Positions 325 to 13,116 of a DNA stretch of 26,468 bases are shown in pieces. This DNA is from a virus, in the IMG/VR virus record IMGVR_UViG_3300022538_000905, positions 1 to 26,468 of that record, one strand, 5' to 3'. Every line of letters begins with the position of its first letter. Position 1 is the stretch's first letter. The notes under the pieces are model-generated. The model saw nothing but the letters and a program-made list of their open reading frames with translations. It searched no databases and was not told the origin of the DNA. Made by a program: the position numbers and the translations under genes.

Positions 325-327
325 TGA

Positions 328-504
328 GGAGCATCGAATGAGCTTCTATAACATCCTCAACAATGTGGTAAAGCTCTTACTACCTAAGAGAGAAAGAACC
401 ATCAGGCCCGGGCAGGGCCTTCAGGAAACTGAGAATCCCCTTCCCCTTTTGGGGAATGTTAATTCGACTCTTGGGGAATGTCAAGCTCCTCAGGTATACC
501 TCTA
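328..504 (+). ncRNA. structured RNA with TnpB omega/reRNA-like 3' scaffold, copy 1
   Basis: Seen: a promoter at 294 is followed by consecutive hairpins. H1 is CUCUUA/UAAGAG (374-379/385-390, loop CUACC). A conserved purine-rich strand follows (391-404). H2 is GGCCC/GGGCC (405-409/415-419). H3 is CAG-GAAA-CUG (422-431). H4 pairs CCCC at 437-440 with GGGG at 473-476 around an inner CCCC-UUUU-GGGG hairpin. The locus ends GGGGAAUGUC-AA (473-484). Bases 386-424 are identical to 11541-11579, and CTGAGAATCCCC (429-440) is also shared. Known: IS200/IS605 right ends, which template TnpB guide RNAs, typically read GAATCCC...GGGGAG.GTCAA, with the guide immediately downstream. Inference: bases from about 485 (GCTCCTCAGGTATACC) would be the guide. 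No tnpB lies nearby. The 170-aa ORF across this locus is probably spurious. Exact ends are unknown. Confidence 0.65.
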
Positions 505-847
505 TAAAATGGAGAGGTTCATTGCATTAACCGGTTATGCTCCTCAAGCCCTAGTGTCAGGGATTGGCCTGGTTCCGGGGCGCAATATTTTATGTAAACT
601 TGCCAACAACTCGCCACTAGCTCACCATACAAGAGATAAATTAGGGTGCTGTATTATCTCTTATCGGAACATAATCACGTCTTTCCCGAGACGAGAAGAC
701 CGCAATTTTCTCTCAAACCTAAAGCTATTCTTAAATAGAGGCACTCCTACCCCACTCACAAACTTACACTTAACTAACTTGTATAGGTTATTTATCTTAA
801 TTTTGCTACCCTGAGGGTGACATAAAATCTACCTTAGGGGGTGTAAA
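505..847 (+). other. gene-free stretch with several hairpins
   Basis: No convincing gene is present. A long open frame runs through but has no ribosome binding site and overlaps the RNA-like locus. The stretch contains local dyads: AAGAGATAA/TTATCTCTT (631-639/654-662, 9 bp perfect), GTCTT/AAGAC near 680-701, CCCT/AGGG near 550-563, and ACCC-TGA-GGGT near 809-819. It could be the 3' part of a longer RNA, or the decayed remainder of a transposon. Nothing here decides between these. Confidence 0.4.
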
Positions 848-11366: not shown

Positions 11367-11384
11367 TTTTTTTCTCCTTTTATA

Positions 11385-11412
11385 TTGACTTTTTAAAACT
11401 TTTTGCTATACT
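11385..11412 (+). promoter_or_regulatory. sigma-70-type promoter for guide-RNA-like locus 2
   Basis: TTGACT (11385-11390), a 16-base spacer and TATACT (11407-11412) with an extended TGC before the -10. It faces right, away from the 11151-11366 gene, and the only thing downstream on that strand is the structured RNA. Confidence 0.65.
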
Positions 11413-11417
11413 TAAAA

Positions 11418-11642
11418 CAATACGCCGGATAATAAAGCTGAAAGGCTGAGAGTGCTATCAGCGTTCTCCGGGGCCGGCTCTTTGAAATCAAAAGTAGAAG
11501 GTTCCGGCAGAAAGGCTGCCGGGTAAAACTTTTGCCACCCAAGAGAGAAAGAACCATCAGGCCCGGGCAGGGCCTTCAGCTTCGGCTGAGAATCCCCCGA
11601 CTTTAGTTGTGGGGAGCGTCAAATTGACATTTTCCTTAATGT
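11418..11642 (+). ncRNA. structured RNA with TnpB omega/reRNA-like 3' scaffold, copy 2
   Basis: From the promoter, in order: a composite stem CCGGA/UCCGG enclosing GCUGA/UCAGC; CAAAAGU/ACUUUUG enclosing the 7-bp hairpin CCGGCAG/CUGCCGG; H1 CUUUUG/CAAGAG (11529-11534/11540-11545, loop CCACC); the conserved strand; H2 GGCCC/GGGCC (11560-11564/11570-11574); H3 CAGC-UUCG-GCUG (11577-11588); H4 CCCC..GGGG (11594-11597/11611-11614, 8 bp with one bulge); then GGGGAGCGUC-AA (11611-11622). H1 and CAAAAGU/ACUUUUG share bases and are alternatives. Bases 11541-11579 equal 386-424. The 3' half matches the usual IS200/IS605 right-end pattern. The presumed guide would begin near 11623 and runs antisense into the 3' end of the 11619-12059 gene. 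A perfect TTGACATT/AATGTCAA dyad (11624-11645) lies there. The 3' end is unknown. Confidence 0.7.
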
Positions 11643-12059
11643 CAACGAAACTCCGAACCACCATTCATCTTGTGACCAGTAAAATCCCAGGGGAAACCGC
11701 TCTAAAAGTTTCCCAGGCATCTGAATCTCCAAGCCCCAAAACACATAACGTGGCTTGTTATTCACAAATCTTGCCCCACCAACAAGGTTGACTCTCTTAT
11801 GAAGAAAGCCCTCCATTAGTGTCAGTCCAAATCCCGATGAGCCATTTTGATTTTCTTTATTCCACATTACAGTAGGTTTCCCAGTTTTAAGTAGTTGCAT
11901 CAAAACAGTCAGTCCATAGTCTATTCCCTCGTAAGTATATTCAAGGACATTTACTGGTCGCTTTTTGATTTTCTCTGAAAGCTCTCCCGCCCAAGCAGAC
12001 GAACCAAACAGACCTATGATTAGCAACACCGTTATCAAAATTGGATATTCTTTCCTCAT
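11619..12059 (-). CDS. secreted, probable outer-membrane beta-barrel-like protein
   Basis: A 146-aa protein with a textbook Sec signal peptide (ILITVLLIIGLFGSSAWA, cleavage probable after residue ~24). The mature part alternates polar and aromatic/hydrophobic residues with Gly and Trp (LVGGARFVNN..., YVFWGLEIQ, LGFYWSQDEWWFGVSLTL), as in short outer-membrane strands. This implies a diderm host. Phage-encoded outer-membrane proteins can change surface receptors or exclude superinfection. The stop codon lies inside the GTCAA end of the opposing RNA (11619-11621), so the two transcription units overlap tail to tail. Start: the ATG at 12059 just follows the subtilase gene end region. Confidence 0.55.
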   Translation of the reverse strand: MRKEYPILITVLLIIGLFGSSAWAGELSEKIKKRPVNVLEYTYEGIDYGLTVLMQLLKTGKPTVMWNKENQNGSSGFGLTLMEGFLHKRVNLVGGARFVNNKPRYVFWGLEIQMPGKLLERFPLGFYWSQDEWWFGVSLTLRKMSI

Positions 12060-12063
12060 TTAA

Positions 12064-13116
12064 TTACCCTCCTTCAGTTCTATATTCCTCATCGCCTATA
12101 TAGTAGGCAGCTATGAACATGGCCAGACTCATTAGCCAATTCATATCCAGTTTCAAACTAACTTTTTCCAATAGCATAAATTCATGCACAGCGACTGAAC
12201 CCCAGCCACTATCAGGCTGCCATCCAGTGTTTCCAATATCTTCTGAAGTGAACACAAATCGAATAATAGCCTCAGTAAGACTTAGGGCGTGCTCTTGCTC
12301 TTCCAATGATAGAACACCAGCCGCCATTGGACTGGCCATACTAGTACCGCTTACCTTGGCATATTCGTCATTCAGCCAGCACCCAAGTAAATCTACTCCT
12401 GGAGCCATCACTACAAGTCTAGGGCCAAAATTACTCCAATCCGGTCTTTCTCCCTTTTCGTCAATAGCTCCTATAGCGAGGGTATGCTTATCATTAGCTG
12501 GGAAGAACAACAGATCCCCTGCATTCCCTCCAGCACAGACTACGATGATTCCCTTATCAGCCATCCTCTTCAAAATGGGCTGAATCCTGTCACCACTATA
12601 ATCTCCCCCAGCACTGATATTAACTACTTCACACTCTTCCTGCTCGGCCCATAACAGTCCCTTCTCTAGCCAACTCCAATCTCCCGAACCATCATCTCCC
12701 AGAATCTTCGCAATATAGAGTTTACATTTCGGAGCAATCCCTTTGAACCTTCCATCAGCACCAATACAACCCGTTACCCAAGTGCTATGTCCATTACTAT
12801 CTTCAACAGGGTCATCACTGAAATTAACTGACTTTTCAACTACGATGTCCTCATGAACAGGCAGTCCGGTATCCAGCACTGCAACCCGCACACTCTTGCC
12901 TGTAATTCCCTTTTCCCATATTTCCTTGATCCTCATGCGCCTGATGCCCCAGTTAGAAAGCTCTTCCTCTGCAAGCATCATTGGCACTTTCTCCACCCTG
13001 TAGGGTGGCAGGTGAAACTTGTCTTTTTTCATTTTACTTTTTTCCTCCTCGGTAAAACTTGCTTCCTGAGTAAAAGTTTTCTGACTATCTCCTCGGATAA
13101 AAAATCTCTTAGACAA
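12064..13116 (-). CDS. subtilisin-family (S8) serine protease
   Basis: 350 aa from a TTG at 13116, five bases after GGAG. The catalytic triad is Asp82 (VAVLDTG), His110 (NGHSTWVTG) and Ser259 (GTSMASPMAAG). The oxyanion Asn is Asn198 (AGGNAGD). The first ~70 residues resemble a short propeptide, and there is no signal peptide. A hydrophobic segment near the C-terminus (MNWLMSLAMFIAAYYIG) could anchor it in a membrane. Phage subtilases are rare. Possible roles are cleaving host surface or S-layer proteins, processing virion proteins, or promoting lysis. It is the second serine protease in this window. The gene is followed at 4-base spacing by the outer-membrane-like gene, indicating one operon. 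Confidence 0.85.
   Translation of the reverse strand: MSKRFFIRGDSQKTFTQEASFTEEEKSKMKKDKFHLPPYRVEKVPMMLAEEELSNWGIRRMRIKEIWEKGITGKSVRVAVLDTGLPVHEDIVVEKSVNFSDDPVEDSNGHSTWVTGCIGADGRFKGIAPKCKLYIAKILGDDGSGDWSWLEKGLLWAEQEECEVVNISAGGDYSGDRIQPILKRMADKGIIVVCAGGNAGDLLFFPANDKHTLAIGAIDEKGERPDWSNFGPRLVVMAPGVDLLGCWLNDEYAKVSGTSMASPMAAGVLSLEEQEHALSLTEAIIRFVFTSEDIGNTGWQPDSGWGSVAVHEFMLLEKVSLKLDMNWLMSLAMFIAAYYIGDEEYRTEGG

Follow-up and report, generated by a model that had tools for sequence, protein, structure and literature searches.

Two related RNA copies in a phage genome are most likely 3′ scaffolds of TnpB-type omega RNAs (reRNA) that come with no nuclease gene. TnpB is a transposon nuclease and the ancestor of CRISPR-Cas12, and its guide RNAs are normally tied to their tnpB gene. 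In the DNA analyzed here (the window, a virus record of 26,468 bases), we consider it probable that the two copies are orphan omega RNAs from an IS605-type element, copy 2 being served in trans by a host TnpB and copy 1 being a decayed fragment. The first-pass annotation had taken compensatory changes between the copies as proof of a conserved fold and as an argument for selection on RNA; it did not recognize the RNA as an IS200/IS605 TnpB-type omega-RNA scaffold.

The copies share a 58-nt core on the plus strand, at 367-424 (copy 1) and 11522-11579 (copy 2), with 91% identity and a spacing of 11155. Hairpin H1, which is weak and competed, pairs CUCUUA with UAAGAG around a CUACC loop in copy 1 (374-390, +) and CUUUUG with CAAGAG around CCACC in copy 2 (11529-11545). 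H2 (404-420 and 11559-11575, both +; loop GGGCA in copy 1), which the annotation had not stressed, is invariant. H3 is UCAG-GAAA-CUGA in copy 1 (421-432, +) and UCAGC-UUCG-GCUGA in copy 2 (11576-11589, +), a typical exchange of a GAAA for a C(UUCG)G hairpin loop. H4 has CCCC/GGGG in both copies and a different interior. All of the base-level differences originally described for H1, H3, and H4 are present in the sequence; however, the H4 interior of copy 1 contains a 22-nt tandem duplication (441-462/463-484), so what had been called a fully different interior is in part a degenerate right end. Folding energies mark copy 2 as clearly structured (z -3.5) and copy 1 as not clearly structured (z -1.4).

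H4 together with the terminal GUCAA is the right end of IS200/IS605 elements. It is canonical in copy 2 (GAATCCCCCGAC-TTTA-GTTGTGGGGAGCGTCAA, 11590-11622, +), where H4 carries a UUUA tetraloop and a GUCAA-type end follows, and degenerate in copy 1 (433-484, +), which holds the duplication and a GUCAA end. The UUUA tetraloop, there in stem 4, and the terminal CAA are also features of the ISDra2 omega RNA (PMC10097598); the omega-RNA scaffold terminates with the 3′ transposon end, and the guide lies beyond the element (PMC10278001). A BLAST search of copy 2 against plasmids matched only ~11588-11625, in Finegoldia, Bifidobacterium, and Ligilactobacillus. The Bifidobacterium match sits behind tnpA-tnpB and the Finegoldia match behind a protein with a weak, below cut-off match to OrfB_IS605. 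The right-end consensus GAATCCCCCGACTTTAGTCGTGGGGAGTGTCAA immediately follows tnpB in Nostoc, Pseudomonas, Enterococcus, and Geoalkalibacter, where the proteins were confirmed as TnpB, and occurs in other genomes also without an adjoining tnpB.

A covariance model built from both phage copies (R1), a home-made model whose E-values are rough, matched five genomes of Actinomycetota (the phylum being that of G006, an Aquiluna record), all of one class, and a search of that class added one further genome. Among the matches are loci of 41-48 bits in which the end of the gene for a 371-aa TnpB is overlapped by H2 (20/22 nt alike), H3, and H4. In two of the genomes (G1378 and G1509) the model matches the terminal part of tnpB itself, which encodes NILRLGQSLQGAETLVSAMN and a stop: AAGGCTCGGGCAGAGCCTTCAG aligns to CAGGCCCGGGCAGGGCCTTCAG, and CUGAGAAUC, the UUUA hairpin, and GUCAA come after it. 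Read in this frame, the phage cores can give TIRPGQGLQ and thus look like a tnpB 3′ end of which the rest of the gene has been lost. Another genome, G1452, holds many copies, most of them with no neighboring match to the Actinomycetota TnpB. Four loci of this Actinomycetota genome (L166, L169, L171, and L176) are multi-copy solo elements of ~320 nt with a TnpB-type right end and a left palindrome, CCCCGCATTTTAATGCTGGGG, near TTTAC.

The whole 58-nt core was found only in this phage pair, and no exact source element turned up; exact and gapped core patterns gave 11 genome and ~90 viral matches that are chance by context, with only the sister phage real. R1 detected no additional copy in three related phages and nothing in ~1,170 genomes of three other phyla, and the right-end pattern found nothing in viral contigs. 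No Rfam covariance model matches either copy; weak matches to STnc320 and a plastid element are due to chance. Neither a Y1_Tnp domain nor the TNB domain of TnpB was detected in five phage records (the window and four related ones) in searches that recovered their controls, although the latter search could miss a protein that has lost its TNB domain; likewise, no tldR gene was found beside the guide (TNB domain absent). By eye, no clear GAC that could form a pseudoknot with GUCAA was seen in 11414-11622. A template repeat of a diversity-generating retroelement (DGR) was rejected, as the changes are transitions of several kinds and not A-specific, and so was HEARO/IscB, suggested by the neighboring HNH gene, whose product is an ordinary short phage HNH protein.

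H1, which had been the lead argument for a conserved fold, does not sustain it. A single pair differs at both bases (A-U to G-C), and a second at one base only. Five random transitions placed in the first 24 nt yield a two-sided change within a stem of 6 bp or longer in 10% of trials, and in 5% when placed anywhere in the 58 nt; requiring a second pair-preserving change lowers these values to 7% and 1.5%, and shuffling the first 24 nt gives 1.2%. H1 is weak (-3.3 kcal/mol in copy 1, -2.0 kcal/mol in copy 2; pair probability ≤0.09). Each copy can form a more stable rival hairpin, GGUAA..UUACU/UUGCC (-4.5 and -4.1), which also accommodates every one of the five changes. None of the homologues found aligns clearly across H1. 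Since H2 is identical in both copies, their comparison is uninformative for it, and the evidence from the two copies alone is barely above chance.

Homologues back the pairing of H3 and H4, which two copies could not prove. In an alignment of 14 right-end sequences covering 13 pairs of H3 and H4, with copy 1 entered minus its tandem duplication, 96.1% of cells are paired and 8/13 pairs show two-sided changes, figures that relatedness inflates because cells count sequences rather than events and the rows come mostly from one Actinomycetota class, several from a single genome. None of 500 shuffles reached this two-sided count or the covariation of 0.469 (0.198 in shuffles), and slid-partner controls never exceeded 5 two-sided pairs or 54% paired cells. 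In H2, a C-G pair becomes U-A, its one two-sided change, in two tnpB-bearing Actinomycetota genomes and one solo locus. The general conclusion of a conserved fold thus holds for H3 and H4 and likely extends to H2. Selection on RNA operated at least within the transposon family that gave rise to the copies; the argument does not extend to current selection on the phage copies, and the right end of copy 1 has decayed.

Copy 2 lies in a 239-nt segment (11384-11622, +) that contains no ORF for TnpB or TnpA and sits between two late genes; the late phage genes also include one for a subtilase-family protease (12067-13116, −). To its left is TTTAT, a TAM/target-like motif (11379-11383, +). When the left flank, CTCCTTTTAT, and the right flank are joined at 11383/11623, they align without gaps to a related phage, L114 (CTCCTTTTATATTGACATTTTCCTTAATG against CTCCTTTTATATTTTCATTTTTCTTAATG), in which the neighboring gene ends in LRKMKI, and the joined sequence regains the stop codon of that gene; this match could be partly convergent, as the left 10 nt include a Shine-Dalgarno motif. 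Given this colinear empty site, the best interpretation of 11384-11622 is an element that inserted behind TTTAT in the IS605-type manner, with no target duplication. The sister record G001, >99.9% identical over most of the window, stops 5 bases before the insertion and resumes 31 bases after it, which could reflect a mixed population or a mere contig break.

A promoter motif with a good extended -10 (TTGACT-16-TGC-TATACT, 11385-11412, +) begins at base 2 of the insertion. We propose that this sigma-70 promoter at the left edge would drive transcription of a solo 239-nt omega-RNA unit. Its RNA would comprise, in this order, the 5′ stems, H2, H3, H4, and GUCAA, and then ~16 nt of flanking phage sequence as a guide. 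Stem A (11425-11471, +; CCGGA..UCCGG with an inner GCUGA..UCAGC) was paired by eye and stem B (11504-11522, +) pairs CCGGCAG with CUGCCGG; the putative guide, AUUGACAUUUUCCUUA (11623-11638, +), is antisense to the 3′ end of ORF 11619-12059. A TnpB-family protein made by the host may bind this RNA in trans. The guide together with TTTAT matches the site when it is free of the element but not when it is occupied; cutting of element-free sibling phage genomes would therefore be the likely outcome, and the element would thereby be retained or spread. A retention or gene-drive effect of this kind has been described for IS200/605 elements in plasmids (PMC11870625). The model predicts that host TnpB loaded with copy 2 RNA cleaves TTTAT-ATTGACATTTTCCTTA. 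As a pointer to the host, the Actinomycetota matches offer only a hint.

The main rival to this model, which we hold to be possible but not the likely case, is that both copies are dead IS200/IS605 remnants hitch-hiking in the phage, with an unused RNA and fold changes that predate insertion. Absence of tnpA and tnpB from the phage records searched, the decay and duplication at the right end of copy 1 together with its low folding z, and the occurrence of right-end-like hairpins away from tnpB in other genomes all fit such remnants. So does the left end of copy 2: no palindrome is seen near 11384, unlike in the G1452 solo elements, and its mobility is therefore doubtful. An alignment of the 5′ half of copy 2 to those elements was suggestive, but this homology failed nhmmer and shuffle tests. 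Against this reading, the extended -10 promoter of copy 2 is still good and its H2-H3-H4-GUCAA intact, and small phage genomes tend to shed what is useless. A solo, nuclease-free scaffold under its own promoter could also act as a decoy or sponge, an RNA anti-nuclease that occupies a host TnpB or a related Cas12 protein with no useful guide; the anatomy offers nothing to separate a decoy from a working guide, and we regard this as very improbable.

Copy 1 is most likely what is left of a second omega RNA, a 3′ fragment whose right end has decayed and which lies within the 5′ portion of an early leader. The leader, ~500 nt long, is common to two relatives, L111 and L112, which differ in sequence here, and no insertion boundary of copy 1 was found in it. 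A sigma-70-type promoter with an extended -10 (TTGACA-16-TGC-TAGTAT, 294-321, +; 10/12) precedes it, in a layout that recurs at other promoters of the sister phage. Upstream of 307, inside this promoter and between -35 and -10, the window and G001 diverge, and the -35 part resembles another sister-phage promoter, which suggests recombination at promoters. A Shine-Dalgarno sequence, GAGGAG (326-331, +), precedes ATG 338 of a leader ORF; both are kept in the window, L111, and L112.

The leader upstream of the HNH gene (window 326-840, L111 2280-2735, L112 2270-2870) is conserved at the nucleotide level, with the motifs AAATTAGGGTGCT..TCTTATCGGAACATAA. Its ORF stays open in each of the three phages, but a coding explanation was rejected, as codon positions change almost evenly (24/88, 19/89, and 29/89) and L112 has the best-kept motif in a shifted frame. 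The leader has no match in Rfam, Pfam, or PHROGs; in viral contigs its motif recovers only the known relatives, the remaining matches being chance.

The guide position of copy 1, GCUCCUCAGGUAUAC (485-499, +), is complementary at 14/15 positions to the start of its own promoter (318-332, −; from the end of the -10 to ~+5), a match that the other 26,224 15-mers of the window all fail to reach. The sister phage has its single mismatch at a different position, and both mismatches are G·T wobbles. This raises a domesticated guide, by which the phage would steer a host TnpB or a nuclease-dead TldR so that copy 1 represses its own early promoter. Phage TldR guides with 6-nt seeds do act on promoters (PMC13418256), a precedent for such targeting. 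About half of the self-match (8/15 nt), however, is accounted for by conserved anti-Shine-Dalgarno pairing in the leader, leaving GTATAC to cover the -10 end; moreover, the TAM would be TTCGAT rather than TTTAT, the copy 1 scaffold lacks 5′ stems, and the copy 2 guide has no significant match to its own promoter. A guide acting on its own promoter is thus possible but not needed, and we find domestication improbable, as we do the wider scheme in which both orphan guides borrow a host TnpB or TldR, one to destroy element-free siblings and the other to control its own early promoter. A more plausible but still tentative reading takes copy 1 as no more than a variable leader arm, in which GCUCCUC (485-491) is an anti-Shine-Dalgarno folding onto GAGGAG (326-331). 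The three leader segments complementary to the Shine-Dalgarno (354-360, 485-491, and 537-548) would then be alternative partners that control translation of the leader ORF. Three phages have the spacing from Shine-Dalgarno to ATG in common; the window shows perfect pairing of the distal partner over 12 nt, and L112 maintains the distal pairing through a UU/AA to CC/GG change. L111, however, retains this pairing only in part, and an arm would leave the right-end hairpin, GUCAA, and the second copy at 11.5 kb unexplained.

The closest known counterpart is the omega RNA of ISDra2-type IS200/IS605 TnpB, which shares the 3′ hairpin with a UUUA loop, the terminal (GU)CAA, the guide position outside the element, and a 5′ TAM-like motif; H2-H3-H4 are also alike at the Actinomycetota tnpB end. 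The phage differs in having no tnpB in cis (window and four related records), in the promoter of its own at the left edge of copy 2, and in a truncated, degenerate copy 1. Solo (non-autonomous, PATE/MITE-like) IS200/IS605 elements likewise have the right end without transposase or tnpB, but the copies described here are phage-borne and copy 2 has no recognized left-end palindrome. TldR systems with phage guide RNAs share a phage-borne TnpB-type guide, and the would-be guide of copy 1 points at a promoter; here, however, no TldR gene was found and the target would be the phage's own promoter. HEARO/IscB omega RNA and RAGATH-18 (IS607 reRNA) are transposon guide RNAs too, yet neither copy has an Rfam match and the neighboring HNH protein is not IscB.

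Separation of the guide from its nuclease is thought to be a step en route to CRISPR-Cas12 (PMC10097598). If the proposed model is true, promoter-driven orphan guides on a phage show how a guide parts from its nuclease, and phages gain a means to exploit a host nuclease. Two further loci were noted. In Nodularia phage vB_NspS-kac68v161 (L116, 2501-2534), a TnpB-type right-end hairpin with GTGTCAA overlaps a small XRE gene, with no tnpB annotated nearby. On the Ligilactobacillus salivarius plasmid NZ_CP123973.1 (L005, 2700-3040), CRISPR-like repeats, GACATAGGTGTAAGAC, lie between two tnpB-family genes, and a right-end-like hairpin sits just past the array.
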